Of a DNA stretch of 64,000 bases, positions 3,196 to 17,012 are shown in pieces; within the stretch, counting starts at the first letter, position 1, and the number at the start of each line of letters is the position of its first letter. The DNA is taken from contig JAKCFJ010000001.1 in assembly GCA_025041175.1 (NCBI GenBank), forward strand, positions 2,311,526 through 2,375,525, in the 5' to 3' direction. Source of the DNA: Halobacteriales archaeon YIM A00010 (lineage in GTDB: Archaea > Halobacteriota > Halobacteria > Halobacteriales > Haloarculaceae). Position numbers and translations under genes: made by a program. The notes below the pieces were generated by a model. That model had not been told where the DNA came from. It saw only the letters and a program-made list of their open reading frames with translations, and did not search any database.

Positions 3196-4323
3196 ATGCG
3201 ACTTACAGGAAAAGAGTCCTTCAGCAATATCGCCCTATTTGTGTCCGATTCTTTTCGCCACGACACGGGAGAATGCGAGTTTGACCGGAATCGGGTGTTA
3301 AAAACAGTCTCCGCAGGTGTATCCAGCCCGCCCAGTTTTGCGTCGATACTCACCGGCCAGCACCCCTCGTCTCACGGGGTGTTCAGATTCAGCCAGAGTC
3401 TTGAAAAAACAACACCAGATTTGTTCGACCTCCGGCCTAATCCGTCGTTCTACAAGGAGGGTATCGAACTCGGGAAGGTGCTCGGGACGAGTGATAGAAT
3501 CCCCCATAAGCCAATAGACGAGGTGGAACCTCCGTTCGTGTATTTTGAGCGTGACCTGTACCCCCACGCCCCATACAATCACGAATGGACATACAATGAG
3601 CCGGTGAGCGACTATTGCAGGCGGAAACAGGGCACGGCGCGAGACGAGTACAGTGCTGCTGGTACGAGTAGTGTTAGTAAGTTCAGGTCGCGCGTCGAAA
3701 CACTTCGCGACCGGGGACTGCTCACAGATACGCTTGTGTTATTTATTGCCGATCACGGTGAAACCTTTGGAGAGCACGGGTTCTATGGGCATGGCTCTGC
3801 TTCGTTGCCTGAGTTAGTGTATACGCCGACTGTTATCTACAACGACGATGTAATGCTCGAAGAGAAAGCAGCTATCTCCCATATCGATCTACTCCCCACG
3901 CTTGCCCACGCAGTCGGACACGATCTCGCGATGGACGAGCGGTATCCTGGGACAAACCTCTTTGAGGGCGCACGCAACGACAGACTTCATTTTAACCAAC
4001 GCTCAAAAAACGAATGGGGGGTTTGGGATGGATCTGGTGGGTACGTGTTCGCTGATACCAACCTGCTCTACCAAGCAGGCCGATTTGTGTACCACGCTGT
4101 GAGGAGTCCGTATTCCCCGTTGCAGCGCCAACACCCACTCCGATTGGCAAAGACAGTAATCAATGAAACGAAAAGTGGTCCCATAACATTCGGGCAGCCT
4201 GATTTCACTCCCGCAGAGGCGCGCTCATTTGCCAAACCGATACTCAGAAATCAGCCCACTGTATCATCAGAACGCGCTGAAATAAATGAGGAGCATTTGT
4301 CTGATCTCGGGTATGTGGAATAA
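3196..4323 (+). CDS. Sulfatase/alkaline-phosphatase-superfamily protein
   Basis: 375 residues. The N-terminus (SNIALFVSDSFRHD) corresponds to the first metal-binding strand of the fold. SSPPSFASILTGQHPSSHGV matches the catalytic segment; where classical sulfatases have C/S-x-P-S-R, this protein reads S-P-P-S-F, so it may be a phosphodiesterase or glycan-related transferase instead of a sulfate ester hydrolase. FIADHGETFGEHGFYGHG supplies the second metal site. The protein is shorter than the usual 450-500 residues. The gene stands alone, and its base composition is lower in GC than its neighbours, which suggests accessory origin. Substrate unknown. Confidence 0.8.
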   Translation: MRLTGKESFSNIALFVSDSFRHDTGECEFDRNRVLKTVSAGVSSPPSFASILTGQHPSSHGVFRFSQSLEKTTPDLFDLRPNPSFYKEGIELGKVLGTSDRIPHKPIDEVEPPFVYFERDLYPHAPYNHEWTYNEPVSDYCRRKQGTARDEYSAAGTSSVSKFRSRVETLRDRGLLTDTLVLFIADHGETFGEHGFYGHGSASLPELVYTPTVIYNDDVMLEEKAAISHIDLLPTLAHAVGHDLAMDERYPGTNLFEGARNDRLHFNQRSKNEWGVWDGSGGYVFADTNLLYQAGRFVYHAVRSPYSPLQRQHPLRLAKTVINETKSGPITFGQPDFTPAEARSFAKPILRNQPTVSSERAEINEEHLSDLGYVE

Positions 4324-4399
4324 TCTATGAGAGACGTTCTCAGTGCATTTTTCGTTGACATTCTCTGCAAATAGCAAGTGCACATCTACTTCGTGTGAG

Positions 4400-4474
4400 A
4401 GCCAAGGGCCGGATTTGAACCGGCGTAGAGTCGCTCTGCAGGCGACCGCGTCAACCGAACTCTGCCACCTTGGC
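4400..4474 (-). tRNA. tRNA-Cys (GCA)
   Basis: The acceptor stem GCCAAGG/CCTTGGC closes, and the T arm has GGTTCAAATCC. The anticodon loop CTGCAGA, within the stem GTCGC/GCGAC, gives anticodon GCA. No CCA is encoded. It is the distal gene of the rRNA operon, as is usual in haloarchaea. Confidence 0.95.
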
Positions 4475-13778: not shown

Positions 13779-14645
13779 TCATCGCTCGAACACGGAAACG
13801 ACCGTCGCGTCGCGGCCGACGAGCAACTCCAACTGCTCGTCGTCGATCTCGGCCGAAACGCGCACGCACCACGGATCGTCCGAAAGGATCGTCTCGCGCC
13901 ATTCTCGTCCGACGTTCCAGATTGGCCGGTTGCGAACGTCTTCGCCGTGGCCGTAATAGAAGGAAACGACTGCGGGGTGGTCGATCACAGCGAGCGTCAC
14001 CGGACAGCGCAGCGTGTACCCACATCCGGTACAGCCGAGGCGGAGCTGTGCCCGTCCATTTTCGGGGGCGCTCTCGGTTTCGGGTTCGGCATCCGCGTAT
14101 TCGACGCGTGCAGTCGATTCCCCGCCACACTCCGGACAGCTCCCATCGGTCATCAACGAGACGCGGTGGCGGTAGAGCCGATCCAGTGCGCCCGGAAACG
14201 CCTCGTCGGCGTGGGTCCGGTGGCCGCTCGGGGGGAACGGCAGCCGTAACACTGCTGCTTCGCACGCCTGACAGCGCACCGTGACGGTGTTGTCGGTCGC
14301 GGTGGCGACCAGCGCGCGGTCGTCACAGAACGGACAGGGGTCGTCGATCCCGACCGGATCGCGATCGACGCTCTCGGTGTACACGCCGGATTCGATCGCG
14401 CGCGCGATCCGGATCCCCGCGTCGGTGAGGGTGTAGCCGTCGTCGGTCTCGCGGAGGTAATGATCGGTGAGCTGCCGGAGGTGGTAGGCGAATCCGGCCG
14501 TGGTGTCCGCACCGCTCGCCTCGGCGAGCTCCGAGAACGCCAACGTCACCGGCCCGCCCTCCTCGAGCAGCGCCGCGAGCACCCGCGTCCGGATCTCGTT
14601 ACCGAGCGGCTGGAACGCCTCGCTCGGCGCGGCTGTTTCGGTCAT
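13779..14645 (-). CDS. Winged-helix regulator with zinc-ribbon region (ArsR-like)
   Basis: 288 residues from the ATG at 14645; an upstream extension to 14696 runs into the repeat DNA and is rejected. Residues about 8-75 form an ArsR-type winged helix (LGNEIRTRVLAALLEEGG, TAGFAYHLRQL). Two CxxC pairs follow (CPFCDD, CQAC), then CPECGG and CTGC, suggesting structural zinc sites. The C-terminal half is a haloarchaea-specific domain of unknown ligand. Probable transcription factor. The 122-bp repeat copy begins only 17 bp upstream of its start. Confidence 0.82.
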   Translation of the reverse strand: MTETAAPSEAFQPLGNEIRTRVLAALLEEGGPVTLAFSELAEASGADTTAGFAYHLRQLTDHYLRETDDGYTLTDAGIRIARAIESGVYTESVDRDPVGIDDPCPFCDDRALVATATDNTVTVRCQACEAAVLRLPFPPSGHRTHADEAFPGALDRLYRHRVSLMTDGSCPECGGESTARVEYADAEPETESAPENGRAQLRLGCTGCGYTLRCPVTLAVIDHPAVVSFYYGHGEDVRNRPIWNVGREWRETILSDDPWCVRVSAEIDDEQLELLVGRDATVVSVFER

Positions 14646-14661
14646 ACCACTATTACAGCAT

Positions 14662-14783
14662 CCCACCTTTTTTCCGTTCGGGTGGCCTTCGGCCACCGCT
14701 CACTTGGCGAGAGCGAAGCTCTCGCTTGCTCCCACTCGCTTCGCTCGCGGGAACGCAAAAAATCTGGACCAAAAAAGCCGCTC
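14662..14783 (+). repeat. 122-bp perfect inverted repeat, left copy
   Basis: This segment is identical over 122 bp to the reverse complement of 16142-16263. It contains stem-loops such as GTGGCC-TTC-GGCCAC and GCGAGAGC-GAA-GCTCTCGC, and runs of A and T at its edges. The two copies enclose the two-gene zinc-ribbon module. Confidence 0.93.
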
Positions 14784-15060
14784 GCTTGCTCCCGCTCGTG
14801 GTCCGAAAATCGAAGATTTTCGTCATCACGAAACGGCTTCGCCGTTTCGAACGACTTCGCTCGCAGGAACTGCGCTCGCGGTGGGTGTACTCACGTTACC
14901 GCACCGCACAACCACGGGGCTATCGTTCCACGCGAGAACGTGCTCGCGCGCTGTCGCCGGGCCGTTAGGCCCGGCTGCTTGCGGAGTCCTCGAAAATGCG
15001 TTGCGTTTTCGGGAGCGCGAAAATCGAAGATTTTCGCAGCCTCCGCTCCGCTCTGTCGCT
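14784..15060. repeat. Cluster of short hairpins with 3-4 nt loops
   Basis: Consecutive palindromes include AAAATC-GAA-GATTTT (twice), AAACGGC-TTC-GCCGTTT, GCCGGGCC-GTTA-GGCCCGGC and AAAATGC-GTT-GCGTTTT. No coding capacity is evident. From 15060 to 15240 the sequence is unremarkable, then a TTTATG box near 15244 precedes the next gene. Confidence 0.7.
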
Positions 15061-15272
15061 GAGGCGTTTCCGTGCGGATCGCTTTGAGCACCGAGAATGA
15101 CGTGACTGCTCGACAGAAATCCACCATAGCCAGTACAATCTCGAGCAGCAACGCCCGATTTCAGGACTTCAGTTCAGATCGACGAAAAACTGCTTCCGGA
15201 ATATTTGTTAGTATTACATAACGTTACTGGTTTGATCAGTACCTTTATGTGTGATGGGGCAAGGAACGATAG

Positions 15273-15515
15273 ATGAGGACGCCAGCGTGCATGGACCGCG
15301 CGTTCACTGAAACGCGCCGGGTGTGTCCACCACCCGACGCTGGGGTTCTCAAGCGGTTGGAAGAACCCATGACAGGGAATGAATCAGAGACATGTAACGG
15401 TGTCGCATCGTATCAGGAATATGAACAGCGAACGCGCTGCCCGGTGTGCGGCCGGCCGGTCCGCTCGCGCCTCGAACACCGGATGGGGTGTCCGTTGGGG
15501 CGGTGGTGGCGGTGA
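15273..15515 (+). CDS. Small zinc-ribbon protein of unknown function
   Basis: 80 residues. The C-terminal part has CPVCGRPVRSRLEHRMGCP, a likely zinc site. The ATG at 15273 lies about 27 bp behind CTTTATGT, consistent with a leaderless transcript; an internal ATG at 15369 is an alternative. Its TGA overlaps the GTG start of the next gene (GTGA). I do not recognise the family. The pair sits between the 122-bp inverted repeats. Confidence 0.6.
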   Translation: MRTPACMDRAFTETRRVCPPPDAGVLKRLEEPMTGNESETCNGVASYQEYEQRTRCPVCGRPVRSRLEHRMGCPLGRWWR

Positions 15516-16069
15516 CGCTGCCACTGTTCCAGTTTCGGGATGGACAGGGCGAAGTCGTGAACCTCTCGGCCGCCACGGATCGGGATGAGATCACGAAAGC
15601 GGAGCTGTACCACAGCATCGACGTGGGTGAAGGACTCTGGTGTAGACCCTGTCAATCCACGGGCTGCGCGCACGCCACGCAGATCGAGCAGATACTGGCG
15701 ACGGCGGGGCTTGGCAGGCCCCGAACGGGCGGGTACGACGAGCTGCCGGGAATCGCGCGGTTCACGCGCTATGCCGCCACCGGTGAGATGGTCGTCGAAT
15801 GCTGGTTCGACAACGGGGCGTGCGTGCGCTTTCACGAACAGCGTAATGGCACAGTCGTGCAGTCGGTGTTCACGCCCGAGGACTCGCGCGAACCGGCCGA
15901 GATGACCGAGAAACCGGATGCAGAGAGCGCGCCCGCCTGTCTGGTCGACACGCTGGTGGCCTACTGCCAGTATCGACAGCGCGGCGATCTCGCTGGGCTA
16001 CAGGAGCGCTATCCCGAGCTGGCCCGCGTCGTCAGAGAGGCCGCCGCTGCATCCACCACCAACGACTGA
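15512..16069 (+). CDS. Uncharacterised protein of the inverted-repeat-flanked module
   Basis: 185 residues from the GTG at 15512, chosen because it overlaps the preceding stop by four bases; the open frame itself extends to 15446. Visible features are GLWCRPCQSTGCAHATQIEQ (a possible zinc-binding Cys/His cluster), an aromatic-rich middle (VVECWFDNGACVRFHEQ) and a C-terminal helix YRQRGDLAGLQERYPELARV. The last 34 codons recur in diverged form at 16264-16366. Function unknown. Confidence 0.6.
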   Translation: MTLPLFQFRDGQGEVVNLSAATDRDEITKAELYHSIDVGEGLWCRPCQSTGCAHATQIEQILATAGLGRPRTGGYDELPGIARFTRYAATGEMVVECWFDNGACVRFHEQRNGTVVQSVFTPEDSREPAEMTEKPDAESAPACLVDTLVAYCQYRQRGDLAGLQERYPELARVVREAAAASTTND

Positions 16070-16108
16070 CGGAACATCGTAGCGCGTGGTAGCGGAGGCG
16101 GAGGGGTC

Positions 16109-16134
16109 GCGGTGAGTTAGTACACTCACCGCGA
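16109..16134. terminator. Strong hairpin after the zinc-ribbon module
   Basis: CGCGGTGAGT (16109-16118) and ACTCACCGCG (16125-16134) form a perfect 10-bp stem with a 6-nt loop, 40 bp behind the stop codon and followed by CTTTTTT at 16148. A terminator role is inferred. Confidence 0.5.
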
Positions 16135-16141
16135 ACGCAGT

Positions 16142-16263
16142 GAGCGGCTTTTTTGGTCCAGATTTTTTGCGTTCCCGCGAGCGAAGCGAGTGGGAGCAAG
16201 CGAGAGCTTCGCTCTCGCCAAGTGAGCGGTGGCCGAAGGCCACCCGAACGGAAAAAAGGTGGG
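16142..16263 (-). repeat. 122-bp perfect inverted repeat, right copy
   Basis: Reverse complement of 14662-14783 with no mismatch that I can see. It splits a duplicated gene end: the 3' end of the preceding gene lies on its left, and a diverged copy begins directly at 16264 on its right. Confidence 0.93.
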
Positions 16264-16386
16264 CCAGTACCGCCAGCGCGGCGATCTTGATGGTCTCCGC
16301 CAGCACCACCCCGAACTGGCGCGCGTCGTGGGGGAGGCCGCTGCATCCACCACCGACGACTGACGGAACACCGTAGCGAGCGGTGG
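16264..16386 (+). pseudogene. Orphan copy of the 3' end of the preceding gene
   Basis: The sequence aligns with 15967-16091 at about 80 percent, including the stop and downstream bases. It encodes QYRQRGDLDGLRQHHPELAR and ends TTDD before the TGA at 16361-16363. No 5' part is present. It is probably the remainder of a tandem paralogue whose front was lost when the repeat arrived. Confidence 0.7.
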
Positions 16387-16412
16387 CGGTTCCCTCCACA
16401 TCTGGCGTTCCG

Positions 16413-17012
16413 TTAAACTGTACGTCGGTCGTACTCGATCGTCGTTGCCACCCGGTTCGCTGTCTCCTCGTCCGCGAGCCGTTCGACCAGATGCAAGGAG
16501 AGATCGAGACCCGAGGTGACACCACCACACGTGAGCACCGATCCGCTATCGACCACGCGTTCGTCCCGAACGTCCACCGACGAGAACGATTCGCCCAGTT
16601 CATCGATCGCTCCCGCGTGGGTGGTCGCGGGCCGCCCGTCGAGCACGCCGGCGTGGGCGAGGATCATCCCACCGGTGCAAACCGACGCCACCGTCGTCCC
16701 ATCCGCGTGACGCTCGGCAACCGCCTCGGGAAGCTCGCCGCGGGCGACCTGCTCGCGCGCACCACCGTGGTCGTCGTTCCACCCGCCGCCCGGAACGATC
16801 AACACGTCCGGCTCCGCGAGCGTTCCATCAGGCTCGACGCACAGCCCGTGGTTGGCCGTCACCGTCTCCGTCTCCGCCAGCGTGACGAGTTCCACCGTCA
16901 GCGCCGCGCCCAGTCGAGCCGCGTTGTCGAGCACCTCGTACGGACCGATCGCGTCCAGCTCGTCGAACCCGTCGAAGAGAACGATCTGGATCTCCGTAGC
17001 TGTCTCACTCAC
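16413..17012 (-). CDS. DJ-1/PfpI family protein
   Basis: 199 residues. IQIVLFDGFDELDAIGPYEVL, VPGGG and the nucleophile elbow ASVCTGGMILAHAGVLDGRP (with reactive cysteine) define the class I glutamine-amidotransferase-like fold; TTH and the CGGVTSGLDLSLHLVER segment match the AraC-associated/isonitrile-hydratase branch. Possible roles are glyoxalase, hydrolase or chaperone. Substrate unknown. Confidence 0.88.
   Translation of the reverse strand: MSETATEIQIVLFDGFDELDAIGPYEVLDNAARLGAALTVELVTLAETETVTANHGLCVEPDGTLAEPDVLIVPGGGWNDDHGGAREQVARGELPEAVAERHADGTTVASVCTGGMILAHAGVLDGRPATTHAGAIDELGESFSSVDVRDERVVDSGSVLTCGGVTSGLDLSLHLVERLADEETANRVATTIEYDRRTV

Follow-up and report, generated by a model that had tools for sequence, protein, structure and literature searches.

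A multi-copy haloarchaeal zinc-finger module with inverted palindromic arms and a leader RNA bearing a hypervariable loop

Bacterial repetitive extragenic palindromic (REP) sequences and bacterial interspersed mosaic elements (BIMEs), as well as the modules of REP sequences and REP-associated tyrosine transposases (RAYTs), termed REPtrons, are multi-copy, dispersed intergenic palindromes that often occur as opposed pairs around a resident gene. Miniature inverted-repeat transposable elements (MITEs) and insertion sequences (IS) carry terminal inverted repeats, with empty sites in relatives. Riboswitch and attenuator leaders, such as T-box and ribosomal protein leaders, are structured 5′ leaders with two mutually exclusive helices by the start codon. 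Plasmid copy-control RNAs of the antisense or kissing-loop type and the RNAs of type I toxin-antitoxin systems are largely conserved apart from one hairpin loop, which diversifies and follows a U-turn-like pattern. Here we describe a segment that shares traits with each of these systems, namely positions 14662 to 16263 of a 64,000-nucleotide stretch (the window) of Halobacteriales archaeon YIM A00010, in which two zinc-finger-like genes and their leader RNA are enclosed by inverted palindromic arms.

The segment is one of 32 copies, in this genome, of a module composed of an operator/TATA box, a leader RNA, gene A and gene B. The genome of the window is labeled G000, the genomes of relatives G001 to G006, single loci L and contigs C. 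The module resembles REPtrons in its dispersed, opposed palindromes, but contains two zinc-finger-like genes and a leader RNA, no HUH transposase was identified, and the whole module is present in 20-32 copies. With MITEs and IS it shares inverted ends and empty sites in relatives; in contrast to them, neither a target duplication nor a transposase was seen, the loci are mostly shared between species and the palindrome also occurs independently of the module. The RNA is a structured leader with two helices by the start codon that would exclude each other, as in riboswitches and attenuators, but it is not present in Rfam 15, has one copy-specific loop and no known ligand, and is found, in many copies per genome, ahead of several small zinc-finger genes that are unrelated to each other. 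Its diversifying loop, in helix P4, makes it comparable to antisense and kissing-loop RNAs; unlike the plasmid antisense and type I toxin-antitoxin RNAs, it is chromosomal, has dozens of paralogs per genome and is known here from sequence alone. We consider it an even call whether the following holds jointly: a multi-copy module that flips, arms that serve as recombination substrates, and an RNA that switches between helices P1 and P5 and carries an address loop.

The sequence-only reading had placed the start of the first enclosed gene at position 15273. In sister copies, stops and frame changes disrupt the frame that opens at 15273, and protein conservation begins near the ATG at 15369. Because the upstream frame is not conserved as protein, gene A was redrawn from 15369, which is most likely its start; 15273-15368 is a conserved structured leader RNA. 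The core of this RNA (15275-15350, + strand), delineated by P1 covariation, fold z, alignment A2 and model R1, comprises helix P1 (15275-15286 with 15339-15350) enclosing P3 (about 15298-15317) and P4 (15318-15336). The window leader folds in this way with a fold z of -3.6. P1 was missed in the RNAalifold consensus because the MAFFT alignment shifted its 3′ strand by one base, and its covariation was therefore tested separately. Over 91 copies, P1 shows 17 pair types (e.g., GAGAAC/GTTCTC, GGGAAC/GTTCCC, GAGGAC/GTCCTC, GAGAGC/GCTCTC and GGGAAT/ATTCCC), with a mean pairing score of 5.81, whereas none of 2000 permutations exceeded 5.07. Alternatively, a segment ending at the gene A start codon can pair with the 3′ strand of P1, resulting in hairpin P5 (GGGTTCT..AGAACCC; 15344-15368, + strand). 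This layout is switch-like, and the RNA would control translation of the zinc-finger genes by P1/P5 switching beside the start codon. Upstream of the core, copy alignment reveals an inverted repeat around a TATA-like box (15234-15257, + strand; consensus CCATCA-N13-TGATGG), which is the probable operator and promoter.

The leader RNA belongs to an uncatalogued, order-wide haloarchaeal RNA family. Neither the window RNA nor 14 relatives had a match above the gathering score in Rfam 15, whereas model R1 matches in all seven genomes of the genus and in 91 of 243 sampled genomes of the order, with up to 15 copies. The family combines covarying helices, a position before the start codon and presence in several genera; in most cases read, the RNA directly precedes the start codon, and among the products of the downstream genes are small CPxCG ribbons and SWIM zinc fingers, the latter identified by a Pfam match. 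Haloarchaeal SWIM genes (in Haladaptatus and others) and small CPxCG zinc-finger genes are preceded by the same RNA family as the module genes, although hhalign comparison with a set of SWIM proteins detected no homology of gene B to them. DNA matching the RNA together with a SWIM gene is found on Haladaptatus plasmids at up to 30 places per record, and the RNA model verifies three strong sites in two 49-kb Haladaptatus stretches; two of these sites directly precede SWIM genes. A tRNA-like gene was considered and rejected, as ARAGORN finds none. On other contigs of G000, the RNA family precedes AstE/AspA-like genes at C4:390847, C4:323082 and C7:29517 (L246-L248), with two copies being nearly identical. 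The promoters of RNA-led operons carry different palindromes per genus (15234-15257 in the window; upstream of L251, L257 and L278 elsewhere), which suggests operon-specific repressors.

Within this RNA, the loop of P4 (15324-15330, + strand; TGTCCAC in the window copy) is hypervariable. It is 6-7 nucleotides (nt) long and distinct in 79 of 91 cases in the genus and in 39 of 43 in other genera. Between orthologs of Actinarchaeum and YIM A00013 it diverges by 42%, compared with 7% for the adjacent RNA, 13% for gene B and about 9% for the homologous flank (p about 1e-19), i.e., roughly 5-6 times faster than its surroundings, and the region with the P3 loop is hardly changed in the same pairs. 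In one pair (L195/L184) the surrounding RNA is identical and the P4 loop is replaced. Loop inversion was discarded as the source of this diversity, as one loop of an ortholog pair does not match the reverse complement of the other. The loop could be variable merely as an unconstrained or mutation-prone hairpin loop devoid of any addressing function, given that loops of structured RNAs often drift and that no loop partner was found. We regard this explanation as conceivable but doubtful: drift alone is too slow because the loop so far exceeds its homologous flank in divergence, the P3-loop region stays nearly constant, and the P4 loop retains a pattern in which T predominates at position 2 and a purine is almost invariably present at position 6, with identical loops recurring at unrelated loci (9 pairs versus 1.7 expected). 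Rapid change of a structurally constrained loop is consistent with a pairing address, but is not proof of it. The loop would then give each copy its own address for pairing of the kissing-loop or antisense type, and such addresses would let many copies coexist without cross-regulation.

The arms of the window copy, previously described from the sequence as 122-bp perfect inverted repeats, are indeed reverse complements with 122/122 identity (14662-14783 and 16142-16263), and extending the comparison to 14662-14786 and 16139-16263 gives 124/125. Their length and identity are far beyond chance expectation; the observation is real, and the finding as a whole is larger than first described. The left arm (14662-14786, + strand) is a palindromic unit, CCACCTTTTTT..hairpins..AAAAAAGCCGC, with a nested double hairpin, and the right arm (16139-16263, - strand) is the same unit reversed. 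Arm pairs of sister copies are mostly 64-84% alike, with 97% in one G005 copy. The 99% of the window pair is exceptional, and because of this near-perfect identity the pair must have been homogenized or duplicated recently. The basic palindrome unit reads CCACC-T6-hairpin-A6-GCCGC and has T-tracts on both strands, so the arms may act as bidirectional archaeal T-tract terminators; the T-tracts of the right arm on the + strand lie downstream of gene B, where they suit such a terminator. Palindrome units are also found by themselves and, in other module copies, within gene A or between the two genes; weaker relatives exist in many haloarchaeal genera, there lacking gene B. The two arms are opposed copies of this dispersed, general haloarchaeal terminator-like palindrome. 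One further locus (G019:C1:2703788-2705413) holds a tandem array of ten palindromic units with an exact spacing of 171 bp.

A genome-wide search with the 122-bp repeat yielded 60 partial matches in G000 that merge into 40 sites. The arms are therefore not unique to this segment, but they are linked to the module rather than scattered at random: 28 of the 40 sites lie at most 1.6 kb from a module (1.7% expected, binomial p 2e-40), and module orientation varies. All 32 module copies are located on the 2.86-Mb main chromosome C1, and no full copy was found on the other six contigs of G000. Same-genus relatives carry 1-24 copies (16-24 in G001, G003 and G004; one in G002 and G006), and the named carriers include Halocatena pleomorpha, Actinarchaeum halophilum YIM 93972 and YIM A00013. 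The module is thus a chromosomal element shared by the Halocatena/Actinarchaeum group, reported to be hypha- and spore-forming (Tang et al. 2023, PMC10067837); the main text of that report does not contain the words copies, zinc, transpos or inversion. The phylogenetic distribution of the enclosed genes, proposed earlier as a check, shows gene B to be essentially genus-restricted: it was found in none of 52 non-genus relatives, and 392 genomes of the order contain two weak partial matches outside the genus. A phage, plasmid or viral origin of gene B was rejected, with no match in plasmid, phage and viral-contig collections.

Gene B copies are 82-85% identical within a genome, whereas modules that occupy a shared locus in two species are 71.4% alike, against 71.1% for any cross-species pair and about 77-90% for their flanks. 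Since same-locus modules are no more alike across species than any other pairs, the copies evolve in concert within a genome. Most of them are old residents, because at 15 of 16 G003 module loci one or both flanks also border a module in G000. The window copy has a different history. It lies between a helix-turn-helix-like DUF7347/DUF7351 gene (13779-14645, - strand), whose start codon is 17 bp from the left arm, and a DJ-1/PfpI gene (16413-17012, - strand). In G005, G002, G006, G001 and G004 these two genes are about 17-156 bp apart and the module is missing, and G003 has 2.4 kb of unrelated DNA between the flanks; the window module was therefore probably gained in this lineage.

Such a gain could reflect a transposon at 14662-16263 that has the arms as its terminal inverted repeats and is mobilized in trans by an unknown transposase. 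The absence of the module at this locus in the five relatives, the 32 dispersed copies and the opposed ends, CCCACCTTTTTT..AAAAAAGGTGGG, favor this explanation, which we nevertheless judge unlikely. No recognizable transposase is encoded in the module: gene B has no significant match in Pfam, NCBIfam or PDB sequences and gene A has sub-threshold zinc-finger matches only. There is no evident target duplication, although the relatives are too diverged to fix the element ends. The shared flanks in G003 indicate that most copies are old, the palindrome is also found by itself, between or inside the genes and in genera lacking gene B, and terminal repeats are not conserved on all copies, many of which lack one or both arms.

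The arms, present in both orientations around many modules, would rather serve as substrates for host homologous recombination, which would flip modules in place, swap their flanks and allow gene conversion among copies. Orientation was compared at nine loci with both flanks collinear between two species. At four of them the module is turned relative to its flanks (L060/L090, L069/L095, L074/L098 and L076/L100) and at five it is unchanged (L050/L102, L051/L103, L055/L104, L057/L089 and L080/L101). The module was flanked by arms on either side, in one or both species, at 4/4 inverted versus 1/5 uninverted loci (Fisher p 0.048). Inverted repeats thus surround a segment present in both orientations at four sister loci, as in an invertible switch, here between species. 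Modules also lie at rearrangement breakpoints (L065/L092/L094, L070/L071/L096 and L073/L075/L097/L099), and some breakpoint segments are about 104 kb with modules at both ends. Host recombination between opposed palindromes and between modules would account for in-place inversion, breakpoints and concerted evolution alike. The suggestion of the sequence-only reading that the segment could invert or move as a unit is hence borne out for sister units, which are flipped at 4/9 loci, and by the absence of the window unit in five relatives, but the flips are seen between species and not within one strain. We conclude that this suggestion is partly supported by these comparisons, on an evolutionary time scale.

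A programmed on/off inversion switch operated by a site-specific recombinase would likewise account for the inverted arms and the four in-place inversions. It is very improbable, as the arms diverge and vary in length, no recombinase is encoded inside the unit and the evidence is entirely interspecific; moreover, inversion would not switch the module because each module carries its own promoter. Finally, a DNA-targeting guide of the bridge RNA or omega-RNA type, whose loop names the insertion site, can be practically dismissed: a copy-specific loop in a dispersed element would suit it, but within 2.5 kb the loops match flanks and element no better than expected from permutation, no protein resembling IS110 or TnpB was identified in the module, and in the genera examined the RNA is positioned directly upstream of a start codon.

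Several observations weigh against the combination of flipping modules, recombining arms and an addressed, switching RNA. For ten of the 32 module copies, the arm search located no repeat site at a distance of up to 1.6 kb, typical arms are only 64-84% alike over 50-125 bp, and both arms are in position in just 14 examined copies, with many copies lacking one or both. The association between flips and arms is borderline and derives from nine loci; the inversions are purely interspecific, and two insertions that occurred independently and in opposite orientation at a single site would look like an inversion. P1/P5 switching is a reading of the sequence only. The search for a binding partner of the P4 loop found none: no loop matches its own element or flanks above permutation, and complements between P4 loops within a genome are few and at most 5 nt long.

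Gene A (15369-15515, + strand) encodes a 48-amino acid (aa), CPxCG..H..C zinc-finger-like protein and gene B (15512-16069, + strand) a 185-aa protein with a WCxPCx4CxH motif that belongs to no known family. The overlapping GTGA stop and start and the Cys-rich motifs are as they had been described. Gene B is under purifying selection, with a ratio of nonsynonymous to synonymous substitution rates (dN/dS) of 0.126 and 25 of 32 copies intact. The predicted structure of its product (mean predicted local distance difference test score, pLDDT, 72) has no significant fold match in PDB or BFVD. Assignment of gene B to SWIM (PF04434) was rejected: its CxxCx4CxH differs from CxCxnCxH, there is no Pfam match and the hhalign probability against SWIM relatives is 0.5%. 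Binding of nucleic acid is probable for A and B, with the operator as a possible target. Right after the right arm, a duplicate of the gene B 3′ end (16263-16389, + strand) is 76-83% identical to the original; in several species the gene B 3′ end is repeated after a terminator-like unit (also L065, L092, L095, L107, L195 and L204), sometimes twice in tandem. A double hairpin of about 51-55 bp with stop codons lies inside gene B after codons W43-C44 at L065, L068, L077, L058 and L050 (G000) and at L107 and L108 (G005). It is flanked by a short repeat (TGTCG in G000), its length in G005 is not a multiple of three, and it may represent an intron, a bypassed stretch or an insertion that inactivates the gene. 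A second module subfamily, in Actinarchaeum and YIM A00013, is adjoined by another multi-copy gene, which encodes a coiled coil and a helix-rich C-terminus (L186:1573-2421 and L185:5198-6076), and direct repeats resembling an array of clustered regularly interspaced short palindromic repeats (CRISPR) lie beside a module copy (L186, about 4134-4416).

The RNA family is absent from Rfam, has dozens of copies per genome and is directly testable in haloarchaea; its signature is unusual, as a single loop outpaces the flanking DNA and the remainder of the RNA stays fixed. We tentatively propose an undescribed haloarchaeal RNA family of dozens of paralogous leaders per genome, each with its own 6-7 nt address loop. 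As a chromosomal counterpart of plasmid incompatibility loops, it might control expanding zinc-finger operons that are also chromosomal flip points and recombination hubs. The repeated modules with opposed palindromes at inversion breakpoints are a likely cause of chromosome rearrangement in these hypha- and spore-forming archaea (PMC10067837). If the loop is indeed an address, the family would provide an archaeal example of near-identical gene copies being told apart by RNA.
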